This document shows, one piece after another, positions 902-22,008 of a stretch of DNA of 45,239 nucleotides (position 1 is the first letter of the stretch; each line of letters starts with the position of its first letter). This DNA is from a virus. The notes beneath the pieces were generated by a model. The model did not search any database and was not told the origin of the DNA. It saw only the letters and a program-made list of their open reading frames with translations. The stretch is from positions 1-45,239 of IMG/VR virus record IMGVR_UViG_3300042893_001754. The stretch is one strand, 5' to 3'. The position numbers and the translations under genes are program-made.

Positions 902-1213
902 TTAAGCTATAAGTGGTCTTTCAATATGTAAAGTACCTATTTTTGGTTTATTTCCTCTATTACCTTCTTTCTCTTTATATAGATAAAGTAGACTTTTGAC
1001 TGTTTCTAAATCTGTAATCTCTATATAGTTTTGTACATCAGCTTCTATATACCTTACCATTTTTACTGTATCCTTTTTTTCCCAATTCCATTCAAAGGTT
1101 ATGGTTTTATTTACTTTTAGAAATAAGTAAAAGTCGTGAAATCCTAAATCGTTAAATCCATCGCCCATGTTATAGCGTTCAAATCCTAAATTAATCAAAT
1201 CTGAGTATTTCAT
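902..1213 (-). CDS. Hypothetical protein (103 aa)
   Basis: ATG at 1213, TAA at 902, 13 nt before the denV-like start. The product is rich in aromatic residues and charge (FHDFYLFLKVNKTITFEWNWEKKD in its first half) and is likely a small soluble domain. No recognised family. It is packed in the leftward early operon between denV and another unknown gene. Confidence 0.6.
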   Translation of the reverse strand: MKYSDLINLGFERYNMGDGFNDLGFHDFYLFLKVNKTITFEWNWEKKDTVKMVRYIEADVQNYIEITDLETVKSLLYLYKEKEGNRGNKPKIGTLHIERPLIA

Positions 1214-1239
1214 AATGCTATTTTTTACAAATTTACAAA

Positions 1240-1461
1240 TTATTTTGTTTCTACACTACTTTCGTAAGTGAAAGTTTTTAAATCTATTTTTACCTTGTTG
1301 TGGTATACTGCAAAAGGCTTCTGTCTGTTAGAACTAAAAAACGCTAATCCTTTTTCAACCGCTTCTTTTAAACTGTCCGCAATTACTATATGGTAATCAA
1401 AATCTTTTTCTTGCTCTCCATTAACTGTACGTCTGTGCCAAATCTCTAGTTTATATGTCAT
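1240..1461 (-). CDS. Hypothetical protein (73 aa)
   Basis: ATG at 1461. A small soluble protein with the look of a compact alpha/beta domain: N-terminal strand MTYKLEIWHRR, a helix around DSLKEAVEKGLAFF, then a second strand region. No known family. It lies in the early leftward gene train with short intergenic spacing. Confidence 0.6.
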   Translation of the reverse strand: MTYKLEIWHRRTVNGEQEKDFDYHIVIADSLKEAVEKGLAFFSSNRQKPFAVYHNKVKIDLKTFTYESSVETK

Positions 1462-1472
1462 ATCTTTTATTT

Positions 1473-1634
1473 TTAATCTGCATCAGTACACTCTTTGATT
1501 CTGAACTCTGCTCTATATACCATAGTAATTTCTTTCTCACTATCTGCACAACAAAACTTTAAGTGCTTCATAGAAAGTTCATACTGTTGACTTTGTGTCA
1601 AATTATTCCACCAATTAATCGCTGTAATATTCAT
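1473..1634 (-). CDS. Small hypothetical protein (53 aa)
   Basis: Reading the minus strand from an ATG at 1634 gives 53 codons ending in TAA (begins MNITAINWWNNLTQSQQ, ends KECTDAD). It fills the gap between its neighbours exactly, leaving 11 nt downstream and 3 nt upstream, as expected for an operonic gene. The WW pair and the NLTQSQQYEL helix resemble small phage helical proteins, but the function is unknown. Confidence 0.55.
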   Translation of the reverse strand: MNITAINWWNNLTQSQQYELSMKHLKFCCADSEKEITMVYRAEFRIKECTDAD

Positions 1635-1637
1635 ATT

Positions 1638-1859
1638 TTATAGTTTAAATTTATAAGTCATCACAAATTCGTTATACTCGTTGTATTCATGTATTAGGTA
1701 TTCTGACCAAGTATTATTAAATAACCATCGTCTTCCTTTTTTTGAGTCTATGTATCTTAGTGTTTGGATAATCTCCTCTCTGACGTAGCTACTACATCGT
1801 GAATCATCTATTAAAAAGTTATTTACATCCAACTCATTTAAAAATATACTTCTTTCCAT
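1638..1859 (-). CDS. Hypothetical protein (73 aa)
   Basis: ATG at 1857-1859 lies 2 nt after the TAG of the upstream gene (1862-1864), so translation is probably coupled. The product is Tyr/Asn/Glu-rich (WSEYLIHEYNEYNEF near the C terminus) with a central RRWLF motif. No known family. Confidence 0.6.
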   Translation of the reverse strand: MERSIFLNELDVNNFLIDDSRCSSYVREEIIQTLRYIDSKKGRRWLFNNTWSEYLIHEYNEYNEFVMTYKFKL

Positions 1860-6609: not shown

Positions 6610-7188
6610 TTATTTTAAACTTTCTAGTAATTCTTTCAGTTCTTCTAATGTAGGTACATAACCTTTAATTAGATTACCATCATCATCTAGCTTGATAACA
6701 CCTAGATTATATTTATGTTGGTCATGGAGCGTATCGTAATTTTCAATAGCGTGTTTTACTTTTACCACTCTTTGTTCTTCTGCATTCAATAAGTTCCAAA
6801 CAATTGCTTTTTTACCATAGCATTTAATAAAATCTTTGTGCTTTTGTACAGTAGTGTACATCGCATTATCTCTTTCGTCATAATTAAAACCTAAACTATT
6901 TGAAAGTGTTTTTAAACCACTATTTGATAAGGTATTTTTTAAACTGTCTAAACTATCAATAGGTAAACCTCCTAGATTACATTTTCCTTCATCAACATTA
7001 CTATCATCCACTCCAATATAGTTTTTATATTGTGTTTCATATAATCTAGCGTAATAAGAAAACTCTTGTTGAAAATTTCCTTTGGTTATTTTAAATGCGC
7101 CACTAACTTCTAATCCGAAACCCTCTCTTAATGTTTCTACTTTAACTTCTCCTGATACGACTTGTAAGCCATTAAATAAATTTTCCAT
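6610..7188 (-). CDS. Hypothetical protein (192 aa)
   Basis: ATG at 7188. It is one of the longer proteins of the early arm. The first 60 residues look beta-rich (LQVVSGEVKVETLREGFGLEV), the middle is Ser/Leu/Asn-rich (SLDSLKNTLSNSGLKTLSNS), and the C terminus is helical (TLEELKELLESLK). There is no membrane segment, metal-binding cluster or nucleotide-binding motif. Unknown function. Confidence 0.65.
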   Translation of the reverse strand: MENLFNGLQVVSGEVKVETLREGFGLEVSGAFKITKGNFQQEFSYYARLYETQYKNYIGVDDSNVDEGKCNLGGLPIDSLDSLKNTLSNSGLKTLSNSLGFNYDERDNAMYTTVQKHKDFIKCYGKKAIVWNLLNAEEQRVVKVKHAIENYDTLHDQHKYNLGVIKLDDDGNLIKGYVPTLEELKELLESLK

Positions 7189-7266
7189 GATATAATTTTT
7201 AAATGATTATTTTTTAATAAGTGGTATCTACATACCTATTTTTAATTTTGATTGCTTAAATAGGCT

Positions 7267-7668
7267 CTATTTAGCTATTTTAATGTATTCGACTACTGCA
7301 TCGTAGATAGCTTCTTTCATACTTCCACTAACTACATCAACTAATACCTCTCCTCTTTCGTTATTTACTACCCGAACCATGTTCTCTTTTATCTCCACGA
7401 TATTATTCAAGCCATTTATTTTTTCAACAACTTCCATCAGGGAGTTCCAATCATGGTCAAAAGTAAAATACTTATGAATATGATACCAAAGTTCTTCTAA
7501 ATCGGTAGAACTAATTGGGGCATTTTCAGCTACCATGTACTCGTATCTCCCATCTTTGTTTATGTATGGTGCTTTGCCCATAAACTCAGCTATCAATCTG
7601 TTGGATTCTCTTAGGTCAATTTCTTTTAAGAAATCAGCTAACTTTTTTTCGTATTCTTGTGCTTCCAT
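7267..7668 (-). CDS. Hypothetical protein, paralogue of its upstream neighbour (133 aa)
   Basis: ATG at 7668. It carries ESNRLIAEFMG and WNSLMEVVEKI, the same two blocks in the same order as the adjacent 108-aa gene (NNKIIAEFME, WNWLMEVVEKI). A C-terminal helix (MKEAIYDAVVEYIK) also matches (IKAVYNACVEFIK). The pair therefore arose by tandem duplication. I recognise the N/R-L/I-IAEFM and W-x-x-LM-x-VVEKI blocks as recurrent in phage genomes, without a known function. Confidence 0.65.
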   Translation of the reverse strand: MEAQEYEKKLADFLKEIDLRESNRLIAEFMGKAPYINKDGRYEYMVAENAPISSTDLEELWYHIHKYFTFDHDWNSLMEVVEKINGLNNIVEIKENMVRVVNNERGEVLVDVVSGSMKEAIYDAVVEYIKIAK

Positions 7669-13716: not shown

Positions 13717-13947
13717 TTATACAAAATATAACAAACTGGTTTCGTGTAGTAGTAAATAATTAAATTTTTCGTCTTCATCTACTAGGTCTCCGGCTGTATA
13801 TTTTACCTCTTTTCCTAAACTGTTTTTTAATCTATCATCACAATCGTCTGCAACTTTGTAAAGGTAAGCTTTTAAATTTACCTCTGCAAATGCATCTTCA
13901 GGTTGTTTCTCTTGTCTAATTATGACTCTTTTAAATAGTGGCTCCAT
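13717..13947 (-). CDS. Divergent short GroES-like co-chaperonin
   Basis: The 76-aa product follows the GroES (Cpn10) pattern: MEPLFKRVIIRQEK (GroES PLHDRVIVKRKE), LKAYLYKVAD (VLAVGNG region), VKYTAGDLV (VKVGDIV) and YLLLHETSLLYFV (VLIMSESDILAIV). Most GroES proteins have about 95 aa. What is missing here is mainly the mobile loop with its Ile-Val-Leu GroEL-binding tripeptide: only QPEDAFAEVN lies between the first two blocks. The ATG overlaps the GroEL TAA by one base (TAATG), so the two are translated as a pair, in the order groEL then groES, the reverse of the bacterial operon. It may pair with the phage GroEL by other contacts, or act as a regulator. Confidence 0.65.
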   Translation of the reverse strand: MEPLFKRVIIRQEKQPEDAFAEVNLKAYLYKVADDCDDRLKNSLGKEVKYTAGDLVDEDEKFNYLLLHETSLLYFV

Positions 13948-15500
13948 TATAATCCGTTATCTGAAATTAAACAATCTGTTTTGATTACTAAAGAGGCAAC
14001 TGATACTGCATTTTCTAATGCCACTTCTAATGCTTTGGTTGAGTCTATTATTCCGGTCTTTAGTAAATTTTCAACTTTTCTCGTTTTAACATTTACCCCA
14101 TACCCAAATTTACTTGTAGCTGAATTATAATTAACTTCTTTCATAGAGGCATTCTCAAGAATTTGTCTGAAAGGTGCATAAAGTGCCACTCTAACATTAT
14201 CATAACCTAAGAGGGTTGCTCCAGATAGCTTTGAAACTTCTTTCATTCTAAATTCTGAAATATGCCTTAAAGTAGACCCACCTCCTGAAACAAATCCTCC
14301 ATCTAAAGAAGATCTAACAGCATGTACTGAATCTTCAATTCTATCTTTCTTTTCTTTTACCTCCGATTCAGTTACCCCTCCTACATAGATAATAGCAACT
14401 GTATTTTTTAGATTAGATAATCTTTTTGATAACTTAACTTTATCGAATTGATCAACTGTGTTCTCTAACTGTACTTTTAAAGATTCTACTCTTTTTTCTA
14501 CTTCTTCTGAAACACCTTCGCAAATAAACACTGTTCTATTTTTATCGGATAAGATCTTTTTTGCAAATCCCATTTTTACCGTAGAGCTTGTTTTTGTAGA
14601 AAAGACCTCTCCGGAAGTAAATGCAGCAAGATCCTCTAAAATATTTGTACGATTCAATCCAAAGTCTGGACTAAGTGTAACAGATACATTAATAGTACCC
14701 TGCATTTTACTTTTTGCCAGTGTGGCCATTACACCTTCATCCACATCTTCGGCAATGATGAATAAAGATTGTCCGTTAGTTTGGCACTCTCTTACTACTG
14801 CCGCAATGTCATTAATAGATTTTATCGGGCCATCGTAAATTAGGATTCTAGAATTCTCTAAGGTAACGGTCATTGTTGATTGATCTGTGATAAAGTGTGG
14901 AATGGCCCAACCTCGTTCAATAGACATACCATCAATAAATTCTGTTGTTGTCTCTCTAGAAACTCCTTCTTGAATATCAATAGTACCTTCATTTCCAACC
15001 CTTTCAAAAGTATCTGAGACTACTCTACCAATAATTGGATCGTTGTTTGCGGATACTGTCGCAATTTGGAACATCTCCTTTTTACCAACTTTCTTTGTTA
15101 ACTTATGTAAGTTTTTTTGTACTTCCTTGAATGCGATATTCATGCCCTCTACATACTCAACGTGAGATGTATCTGGAAGTAACTCTAATGTCTCTACTGC
15201 GTTTGTAACTAATTGTTGAGTTAGTACAGAGGTGGTTGTAGTGCTGTCTCCAACTAAATCAACTGTTTTTCTTACAGCCTCTTTAAGGAGTTGTCCTCCC
15301 ATTTCTCTAAATGCATCATCTTGCATAATACTTTCGGCCACTGTAACTCCATCCTTGGTAATATGGTTTCTGAATCCCATTTTGTTTCTGATGATAACTG
15401 TCTTACCTTCTGCACCCATTGTAGTTTTAACCGCATTGGCTACAACTTCAATTCCTTCTCGTAGAGCTTTTCTAGCCTCTTTATTTAATTTTATCAGCAT
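13947..15500 (-). CDS. groEL: Phage-encoded GroEL (Hsp60 chaperonin)
   Basis: The 517-aa protein is a full-length group I chaperonin with equatorial, intermediate and apical regions. Nucleotide site: KDGVTVA with Asp50 (E. coli Asp52), the loop GDSTTTT at 84-90 (E. coli GDGTTT, Gly88 replaced by Ser), GGG at 406-408, and the hydrolytic Asp390 in RIEDSVHAVRSS (E. coli Asp398). Apical region: ERGWAIPHF replaces RGYLSPYF. The C-terminal GGM tail found in many bacterial GroELs is absent; it ends SDNGL. ATG at 15500 lies inside the end of the upstream gene (20-nt overlap). It would fold phage proteins, possibly the capsid, in the host cytoplasm. The Gly-to-Ser change in the phosphate loop and the divergent apical face suggest a specialised machine. 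Confidence 0.95.
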   Translation of the reverse strand: MLIKLNKEARKALREGIEVVANAVKTTMGAEGKTVIIRNKMGFRNHITKDGVTVAESIMQDDAFREMGGQLLKEAVRKTVDLVGDSTTTTSVLTQQLVTNAVETLELLPDTSHVEYVEGMNIAFKEVQKNLHKLTKKVGKKEMFQIATVSANNDPIIGRVVSDTFERVGNEGTIDIQEGVSRETTTEFIDGMSIERGWAIPHFITDQSTMTVTLENSRILIYDGPIKSINDIAAVVRECQTNGQSLFIIAEDVDEGVMATLAKSKMQGTINVSVTLSPDFGLNRTNILEDLAAFTSGEVFSTKTSSTVKMGFAKKILSDKNRTVFICEGVSEEVEKRVESLKVQLENTVDQFDKVKLSKRLSNLKNTVAIIYVGGVTESEVKEKKDRIEDSVHAVRSSLDGGFVSGGGSTLRHISEFRMKEVSKLSGATLLGYDNVRVALYAPFRQILENASMKEVNYNSATSKFGYGVNVKTRKVENLLKTGIIDSTKALEVALENAVSVASLVIKTDCLISDNGL

Positions 15501-19637: not shown

Positions 19638-21017
19638 TTATTTAGGTATTAATTCGTAATCTATTGCGGCTTTTAACGCCTTTCCTTTTGTTCCAAACCA
19701 GTTAAATTCCTTATTTGAGGCTAACCAAACTATGTATTTTTTATCTTTTTCCATAACATAAGAAACTGGCTTTCCATTATGTTTACCAAAGTGAAATACA
19801 ACATCATTAGGCTTACTTAACTTATGAGCTTTTTTAGCTAATAGTGTTTTCTTTGTAGGCCTTGAAATAGCATCTATAGGATAATTACTTATTAAATACT
19901 CTCCTTTAAACAATCCCCAACCGTATCCTTCTAAATAATCTATAGTGAAATCCTCAACTTTTCCAAACCTAGTAAAATTTTCACTAAAATCTACTATCAC
20001 AGTTTCTTTTTTATCATTATGTATTCTACAACCCCTTCCAACCATTTGATAATATAAAGAGAAAGACATTGTTGATCTTGCAATTATCACAGTGTCTAAT
20101 TCTGGGTAATCAAATCCGGTAGTTAAAATACCTACGTTTATAACAGTTTTAATACTGCCATTTTTAAACCCGTCTATTATTTCATCTCTCTCTACTTTAG
20201 AGGTCTTAGAACTTACATATCTGGAACCAATTACTTTACTAGAAAGTGTCTCAGCTTCTTCTATAGAAGGTACAAAAACTAATATAGCCTTTCTGTTATT
20301 CTTTACTGCTTCATTAATTCTATTTACTATTTGACCCTCTATATCATTATTTTTATAGAACAGTTTTATACTGTTATCTGTGTAATCAGATCCTGAAGTA
20401 TTTACTTCTAAAATAGACTTATCTTGGTTTATATACTCATAGGATAGTGGTGTCCAAAAATCGCCAGCTAGGTCTTTAATTTGAGAAACATATGCTATAT
20501 CAGAAAAAAGTTTATTTTTTAACTTAGTTAGCATTTTTAATTCTGATCCTCCCATCCCACTTTCTAGGACAAAAGGAGAAGCTGTCAGACCAACTATATT
20601 TGTAATACCAAGACTTTTTATAAAAGATCTTAACTGAGATCCAGATTTAACTCCTATATGTGCTTCATCGACTATTAGGTTTTTAACACCCATACTTTTT
20701 AGTTTATCCACTTCCTTTATAATAGAACCTATTGTAGCGAAAGTGATTTTACCTATTTCTTTTATTCCTGCAGAAGCAGAGTAAATAGAAGCTTTTCCGC
20801 CAGAGTTTATAAACTTCTGATAGTTTTGTTCCAACAGTTCTTTTGAGGGCTGTAAAACAATTAGTGGACTTTTTAACCTTTTAGCAGTAGCTGATATTAT
20901 CACAGATTTTCCTGTCCCAGTCGGGAGAACTAATAACTCTTTTCTAGTTCTTTTTGACGTAAGTATATCGTATGCTATGTTTGAAGAATCTGTTTGATAA
21001 TATCTTAACTTATACAT
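19638..21017 (-). CDS. SF2 DNA helicase with ExoX-C-like C-terminal domain
   Basis: The 459-aa protein carries SF2 helicase motifs: I LPTGTGKS (31-38), II DEAH (117-120), III LTASP (144-148), motif V around VGILTTGFDYP and VI QMVGRGCR (324-331). The length and layout resemble UvsW/RecG-type or SSL2-type phage helicases used in branch migration. The last about 55 residues (FHFGKHNGKPVSYV and IVWLASNKEF) resemble the C-terminal domain of exodeoxyribonuclease X-like proteins (FGKHKGxP...WL), an extra DNA-binding module. ATG at 21017 is preceded by TATCTTTG (21032-21039). First gene of the recombination operon. Confidence 0.92.
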   Translation of the reverse strand: MYKLRYYQTDSSNIAYDILTSKRTRKELLVLPTGTGKSVIISATAKRLKSPLIVLQPSKELLEQNYQKFINSGGKASIYSASAGIKEIGKITFATIGSIIKEVDKLKSMGVKNLIVDEAHIGVKSGSQLRSFIKSLGITNIVGLTASPFVLESGMGGSELKMLTKLKNKLFSDIAYVSQIKDLAGDFWTPLSYEYINQDKSILEVNTSGSDYTDNSIKLFYKNNDIEGQIVNRINEAVKNNRKAILVFVPSIEEAETLSSKVIGSRYVSSKTSKVERDEIIDGFKNGSIKTVINVGILTTGFDYPELDTVIIARSTMSFSLYYQMVGRGCRIHNDKKETVIVDFSENFTRFGKVEDFTIDYLEGYGWGLFKGEYLISNYPIDAISRPTKKTLLAKKAHKLSKPNDVVFHFGKHNGKPVSYVMEKDKKYIVWLASNKEFNWFGTKGKALKAAIDYELIPK

Positions 21018-21031
21018 GTATTAATTTTTAA

Positions 21032-21039
21032 CAAAGATA
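21032..21039 (-). promoter_or_regulatory. -7 box for the helicase-RecA operon
   Basis: The minus strand reads TATCTTTG, then TTAAAAATTAATAC and the helicase ATG. The leader is nearly the same as those after TAACTTTG (21622-21629) and TACCTTTG (21701-21708). At -33 only TTTT is present. Confidence 0.6.
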
Positions 21040-21621
21040 AGAATTATATTTGATTAAAAAAAGGAAAAAGCAAAAAAAAATTAAAATTTCTAAAAAATAA
21101 ACATACCTTCCCATAATTATAGTTTTGTAGAAATAATTCCGGGGGATTAAGAAAATCTAACTTTGTAGGAAAAATATTGTTTACTTGTAAAATTGCATCT
21201 TTTGAGGTTAGAACTGTCTTTTTATCTGTATTGTGGGTAAGACCGTTCTACCGCTTCTAGGTAGGTAAGAAAAACTGCCCTGCGCTGTCTACTTCTCTGC
21301 GGTTTGTTGTTGCAGAACACCCCCAAACCCCCTCTTTTGTAAGAGTAGGTTTGTAGGAGTACCAGAATAGGAAAAACACCGAATCCATCATTCTGTAGGT
21401 TTTTTGTTTTACTACTTTACCAACCCCTTCTTCCTTCTCGTTGATATTCGATTGTATTATTTATTTAACAACCTACTTGTGTAGTTTTAGCTGAAACCAT
21501 ATAAACAGCTATACTCTGGCGAATATTATACAGTAATCTGTATACATCTCTTCCATTTAGCTTAGGCAAACAAATTACCGCAATACGAACCTTTCGGTAG
21601 CCACGTATCATTAATTTTTTA
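21040..21621 (-). ncRNA. Candidate structured leftward RNA in the divergent region
   Basis: About 0.58 kb between the arms is richer in G+C than its surroundings and holds many complementary segments: TATACAG/CTGTATA with a 4-nt loop (21527-21544), TAGCTG/CAGCTA (21488-21511), CAGAAT/ATTCTG (21363-21395), CTCTT/AAGAG (21332-21345), GGTTTG/CAAACC (21301-21329), TCTGC/GCAGA (21296-21316), CTACC/GGTAG (21248-21264), and GTAGGTT (21395-21401 and 21345-21351) complementary to AACCTAC (21470-21476). A TAACTTTG box (21622-21629) would transcribe it leftward. Strand is inferred from that box. It competes with the 48-aa reading frame at 21465-21611. Confidence 0.4.
21465..21611 (-). CDS. Possible small basic protein (48 aa)
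   Basis: An ATG at 21611, 10 nt after a TAACTTTG box, opens 48 codons to TAA (begins MIRGYRKVRIAVICLPKLNG, ends TTQVGC). The product is basic and the position after the promoter is like that of the helicase. However, the same DNA contains perfect hairpins and is GC-rich for this phage, so it may instead be part of a structured RNA. Confidence 0.3.
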   Translation of the reverse strand: MIRGYRKVRIAVICLPKLNGRDVYRLLYNIRQSIAVYMVSAKTTQVGC

Positions 21622-21629
21622 CAAAGTTA
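21622..21629 (-). promoter_or_regulatory. -7 box of the divergent leftward transcript
   Basis: The minus strand reads TAACTTTG followed by TAAAAAATTAAT. It stands back to back with the rightward promoter at 21668-21708, so about 40 bp separate the two divergent transcription units. At -33 only TTTT is present. Confidence 0.55.
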
Positions 21630-21667: not shown

Positions 21668-21708
21668 TTTAACTATTTTGGTGTAGATTTAATTTTTTAA
21701 TACCTTTG
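21668..21708 (+). promoter_or_regulatory. Rightward promoter with extended -33 element (PR1)
   Basis: TTTAACTATTTTG (21668-21680), 20 nt, TACCTTTG (21701-21708). It is the first of four rightward promoters sharing the TTTAACTA(A)TTTTG element; here one A is missing. It drives the first plus-strand gene at 21727. Confidence 0.75.
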
Positions 21709-21726
21709 TAAAAAATTAATACACTT

Positions 21727-22008
21727 ATGTTACCAGTAGATTTAACTTACGCAGAATTGCAGGACATCACATATGAAGAGTTTTATGACTTACTATGGGA
21801 GAATGTTTCAGAAAATATAGTTTCAACAATATACTTAGATGAGAATGATGAGTACATTAATAGTATGACTTTTGATCTTTATAGATTATACCAAATGAAT
21901 TGTGGGATAACTATTAGGGTTTTAGGTAGGATACTAGAATCTTCTTTTTTTAATATGTTTAGGCATAAACCAAGAACAGAGAATTCACTAGATAATTATT
22001 ATAATTAG
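21727..22008 (+). CDS. Hypothetical protein (93 aa), first gene of the rightward arm
   Basis: ATG at 21727. The product is acidic with YAELQDITYEEFYDLLWENVSEN at the N terminus and a helix with FDLYRLYQMNCGITIRVLG; it ends TENSLDNYYN. No known family. It is followed by its own promoter for the next gene, so it may be a single-gene unit. Its place at the head of the structural arm would suit a regulator or an early virion component, without direct evidence. Confidence 0.6.
   Translation: MLPVDLTYAELQDITYEEFYDLLWENVSENIVSTIYLDENDEYINSMTFDLYRLYQMNCGITIRVLGRILESSFFNMFRHKPRTENSLDNYYN

Follow-up and report, generated by a model that had tools for sequence, protein, structure and literature searches.

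The AT-rich phage sequence studied here (a stretch of 45,239 nucleotides, the window) has two divergent gene arms, and we consider it likely that the region separating them encodes a structured noncoding RNA that is some 300 nt long and transcribed independently, the predicted core of which spans 21610-21316 on the minus strand. Comparison of homologous loci indicates that the RNA has a conserved fold, a conserved strand, a non-coding nature, a promoter-like box and a fixed place in the genome. The earlier note on this DNA had proposed a large structured noncoding RNA read leftward, a notion that is in agreement with the covariation now found in homologues and with the lack of conservation of a 48-aa frame. 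The interval that it delimited, 21040-21621, is however only partly occupied by the conserved RNA, which runs from helix P1 to an invariant GGGGGUGUU (21316..21610, minus strand; nhmmer and covariance model homologues, alignment and covariation), whereas 21040-21315 is a variable, lineage-specific tail.

The RNA lies in a gap of roughly 700 nt that separates a helicase gene read leftward (19638-21017) from a gene for a 93-aa protein read rightward (21727-22008), and as previously stated no protein gene is found between 21017 and 21727 in the window. The description of the region as GC-rich and hairpin-dense is borne out for the hairpins, the 7-bp stem and the named pairings being present, but the GC excess is only mild (33.5% in 21040-21621 versus 31.3% in the whole window), and even the RNA core with 37% GC (21305-21612) is equalled by 9.7% of equal-sized windows. 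Single-sequence folding against shuffled controls gave z = -2.05 for the minus and -2.27 for the plus strand, and z = -1.2 for the homologous locus L004; the advantage over shuffles is thus only moderate, at about two standard deviations, and the left half (21045-21304, z = -0.31) is at chance level. With a folding advantage of this size and a mild GC excess, the case had to rest on comparison. Elsewhere in the window, one of the 67 proteins matches the Pfam family of the type I Thoeris inhibitor Tad6 (E 1.4e-12) and may be a counter-defence gene, and a phage-encoded chaperonin GroEL is found at 13947-15500 on the minus strand (phrog_5725, E 3.5e-120).

The first homologues came from a helicase search of IMG/VR followed by alignment of the gap upstream of the helicase; these gaps align immediately, in blocks including GCTAAATGGAAGAG, CGCCAGAG and TGGATTCGGTGTTTTTCC. 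Pattern scans and an nhmmer profile yielded 15 distinct full copies (14 and the window); L044 and L046 are far diverged. Furthermore, a covariance model built on P1-P4 was run on 49 loci anchored on TerL and matched 20 contigs and the window, all with E < 1e-25, the next best match having E = 0.84. These 20 IMG/VR contigs have TerL identities of 39-90% and carry the RNA in the same place, 7.1-7.6 kb upstream of TerL or in the equivalent zone on truncated contigs, and across the homologues its position is fixed between a gene for a 75-93-aa protein and recombination or replication genes. The small gene itself is inverted, being on the strand of the RNA in L044 and L046 and on the opposite strand in the clade of the window. 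On a TerL tree the distribution of the RNA is patchy, with 15 rows of RNA-positive phages in a single clade and a further pair, L082/L095, within another one. Searches of whole records revealed two diverged copies at other sites, in the records of the relatives L083 and L094, which suggests that the RNA family is older than the synteny. In the phage of L094, the diverged copy is situated within an intergenic region that measures about 900 nt (L107 2350-3267). Several weaker candidates were set aside, namely the genome_contigs matches L051 and L052, which the profile does not recover, the weak covariance model matches G014 (inside a reading frame), G012 (inside a 765-aa frame) and L114 (GC-rich coding DNA), and the marginal matches W01 and G002.

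Nine helices are retained across the 15 distinct sequences, which were parsed by hand into P1, P1a, P2, P3o, P3, P4, P5, P5b, P6 and P6i; all coordinates that follow refer to the minus strand. The core opens with P1 (21582..21609), in which 21609-21604 pair with 21587-21582 around P1a, a hairpin with a GAAA loop (21598-21596 with 21591-21589), both helices showing covariation, and P1 carries a UGGCU bulge at 21603-21599. P2 (21565..21579) is a GGUAA/UUGCC hairpin with compensatory GG/CC, GA/UC and UC/GA among homologues, and in the homologue alignment it is followed by a conserved unpaired segment GCUAAAUGGAAG at 21550..21561, present as GCUCAAUGGAAG in L013 and L025. The perfect 7-bp stem with a 4-nt loop that had been pointed out at 21527-21544 is indeed P3 (UAUACAG-AUUA-CUGUAUA, that is TATACAG-ATTA-CTGTATA on the minus strand), a covarying hairpin with one pair at a two-set E = 0.0002, closed by P3o (21548-21547 with 21522-21521). 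The segment GCCAGAG (21514..21520), invariant in 15 close homologues, leads to P4 (UAGCUG/CAGCUA, 21488..21511), which covaries and has three pair types at its closing pair, and then to P5 (GGUUGU/ACAAUC, loop UAAAUAAAUAAU, 21450..21473), where covariation reaches as many as five standard types of pair at a position and three pairs have two-set E < 0.01. The likewise covarying P5b (21418..21446) varies in length by lineage, while P6 (CAGAAU/AUUCUG, 21363..21395) covaries as AAU/AUU, UUG/CAA and CAG/CUG and bears a conserved cap GGAUUCGGUGUUUUUCC (21386-21370) in which one position is variable among homologues. The hairpin P7 (21316..21362), taken from homologue alignment and folding, has a G-rich 3' strand, and the invariant GGGGGUGUU of this region is found at 21324-21316.

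Not all pairings proposed previously are part of this fold. Both copies of GTAGGTT (21345-21351 and 21395-21401) and the AACCTAC at 21470-21476 are present, but the two-state switch between them that had been suggested finds no agreement with the homologues, where strong covariation assigns the bases in question to P5 and no conservation of the second partner is seen. The interleaved TCTGC/GCAGA and GGTTTG/CAAACC, read as a pseudoknot or switch, are likewise not conserved and lie partly within the non-conserved tail. Judging by the alignment, a short pseudoknot between GGC of the P1 bulge and GCU at 21561-21559 is possible. The two segments are nearly invariant, only one or two changed sequences are informative and the alignment of L107 is ambiguous here, and with so few informative sequences we did not accept it as a conserved pseudoknot and retain it as a candidate interaction.

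Among 686 pair cells in the 15 sequences, a count that excludes the first position of P5b, 645 are Watson-Crick, 35 are G-U, six are other combinations and none is A-C. This identifies the minus strand as that of the RNA, since on the opposite strand the G-U cells would turn into A-C mismatches. The hand alignment was built with the structure in view and is by construction biased towards it. In the MAFFT alignment A2, which was not fitted to the structure, 91.5% of the cells are paired and 19 of 29 pairs have changes on both sides, compared to a mean of 8.7 for shuffles and 0-6 for slid structures. In addition, RNAalifold recovers P1, P1a, P2 and P4 unaided. The model-fitted alignment A4, which includes the two diverged copies, has 95.7% of its cells paired, as opposed to 30-40% for slid structures, and both-side changes in 26 of 28 pairs (shuffles 12.7, slides 4-10). 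At E <= 0.05, a home-made phylogeny-aware two-set test similar to R-scape gave support to 12 of the 48 pairs, compared to 0-1 in slid controls, and at least one supported pair is found in each of P1a, P3, P4, P5, P5b and P6. When all pairs were tested for covariation, the hand alignment yielded a single pair that passed E 0.05 and the MAFFT alignment yielded none, as 15 sequences give low power. The covariance check that the earlier note had called for thus came out in its favour, covariation being present in several helices beyond controls.

The promoter box that had been placed for leftward transcription is likewise found: TAACTTTG at 21629-21622 corresponds to a -7 element of the Bacteroidota type (21622..21629, minus strand), which from its sequence is predicted to drive the leftward RNA, and a longer exact promoter motif, TAACTTTGTAAAAAATTAAT, covers 21610-21629 on the same strand. 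From this box, transcription would start near 21610. A TTTG box about 15-25 nt before P1 is kept in all 15 readable homologues. The helicase gene appears to have a separate promoter, TATCTTTGTTAAAAATTAAT (21020..21039, minus strand; a motif match conserved in homologues), and a motif match, TACCTTTGTAAAAAATTAAT, for a promoter that would serve the rightward arm and is divergent from the others is found at 21701..21720 on the plus strand. The shared 20-nt motif TANCTTTGTAAAAAATTAAT has three matches in 45 kb, all of them at promoters of this region, with 0.5 expected, and the promoters at 21020-21039, 21610-21629 and 21701-21720 possibly constitute one common class. A U-tract after P7 and GGGGGUGUU occurs in some homologues only, which makes P7 at most a candidate terminator, and in several homologues lineage-specific hairpins come next. 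The transcript may extend past 21316 into the tail that separates the core from the promoter of the helicase (21040..21315, minus strand), which is not conserved among homologues.

It is hardly conceivable that the region instead holds short peptide genes, such as the 48-aa frame or one like it, and folds by chance. An ATG at 21611 directly after the promoter does open a 48-codon frame, but this frame is open in the window only, all 14 homologues (14/14) having stops in it as well as indels of lengths not divisible by three, and several lack the ATG altogether; codon-level conservation, which had been named as an argument against a structured RNA, is hence absent. A cis-acting leader, in other words a riboswitch, attenuator or processing element that forms the 5' part of the helicase or RecA mRNA and controls it by folding, is an explanation that we regard as unlikely, although the gene immediately downstream of the RNA and on its strand is always helicase or RecA, some members have a U-tract after P7 and a leader could be read through. 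Indeed L044 and L046, where RecA is the next gene and a similar box precedes its start, illustrate that the downstream gene is not constant, and in both lineages a promoter-like box of its own is found just before the start of that gene. Furthermore, the two diverged copies that lie elsewhere are difficult to reconcile with a leader and are what would be expected of a free-standing gene. Since the helicase or RecA gene has its own promoter-like box, an independent RNA acting in trans is the most likely reading.

A replication origin, with the hairpins or a leftward transcript (as primer or R-loop) initiating DNA replication between the arms, seems quite improbable as the primary explanation. 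The cumulative GC skew is lowest at 21001-21500, the arms are divergent and recombinase and helicase genes are adjacent, all of which would suit an origin, but skew also tracks gene direction, which flips here, the 35 G-U and zero A-C cells indicate selection on one RNA strand rather than on a DNA hairpin, and the diverged RNA copies elsewhere likewise speak against it. An RNA gene does not, however, exclude an origin at the same place as a double role. Still another notion, that the region is the remnant of a tRNA island with decayed tRNAs or a tmRNA-like gene, stems from the relatives, in which the equivalent locus contains between 1 and 22 tRNA genes, but it is very improbable, given that ARAGORN and Rfam detect no tRNA or tmRNA in the window or its homologues and that the fold is under active selection rather than decay.

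At the corresponding locus the nearest relatives carry tRNA genes: the Cellulophaga phages phi17:2 and phi4:1 have more than 20, L075 has five and L076, L100 and L104 have one each, whereas the clade of the window has the RNA and no tRNA. These Cellulophaga phages, of Lightbulbvirus, are the nearest cultured relatives found by TerL, and they resemble the window in having the TerL arm with a helicase on the other side and a 92-aa gene similar to the 93-aa gene, but differ by the many tRNAs and an unannotated stretch. Neither R1 nor R2 has a convincing match anywhere in the Lightbulbvirus genome. The unannotated stretch of phi17:2, which is about 500-650 nt long, lies upstream of the helicase and adjoins the tRNA island (L053 ~1000-1690, minus strand; also L054), contains long complementary segments such as CGCTGAG/CTCAGCG, folds with z -1.55, lacks any Rfam match and is possibly another structured RNA. 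An RNA-like stretch with ACGTG...CACGT pairing is likewise seen in L081, in the gap from the homologue of the 93-aa gene to RecA (~6934-7440, minus strand), where no model matches.

By analogy with large phage RNAs at tRNA-island loci, we infer that the independently transcribed RNA has a trans-acting role. The leftward promoter would produce it during infection, it would act as a stable folded molecule, and the exposed GCUAAAUGGAAG, GCCAGAG, the P6 cap loop UUCGGUGUUUU and GGGGGUGUU could bind a phage or host partner. Anti-Shine-Dalgarno pairing of the G-rich GGGGGUGUU with the 16S rRNA tail was considered and rejected, since 1-45% of shuffles reach the duplex energies, as expected from the G content of the segment alone.

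With respect to known families, none in Rfam 15 reaches its gathering threshold in the window or in L001, L002, L004, L013, L021, L029, L044 or L046, and the best sub-threshold match to the region of the window has E = 1.3, with none at E < 1. The covariance models of GOLLD and ROOL match neither the window nor eight homologous loci, and we found no description of this RNA in the open-licence literature. In our view it is a new RNA family that falls among the structured phage RNAs of unknown function, a kind already known. A more far-reaching proposal, which we put forward tentatively and as rather doubtful, is that it represents an undescribed class of phage RNA at the tRNA-island locus, acting in trans as a ribonucleoprotein on the translation or nucleic-acid machinery of the host or the phage, and that it would stand in functionally for the tRNA island and be a compact equivalent of GOLLD and ROOL. 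The latter are phage RNAs that often occur near tRNA islands (PMC12286853), and like GOLLD the new RNA is phage-encoded, structured and of unknown function, with a tRNA locus in relatives at this place; many GOLLD members however exceed 800 nt (PMC12286853), compared to a core of some 300 nt in the gap described here. With ROOL, for which a fold of many helices is predicted (PMC12286853), it shares the many helices of a phage RNA and the tRNA-island niche, but its core is a chain of hairpins in which no long closing helix is seen. A multimeric RNA cage is a further feature of GOLLD and ROOL. The new RNA is smaller than both and belongs to neither. The function of these large phage RNAs is a standing puzzle, and a smaller, well-conserved RNA, whose fold has the support of compensatory changes and which offers a few conserved motifs to mutate, makes the question of function testable on a molecule of 300 nt.
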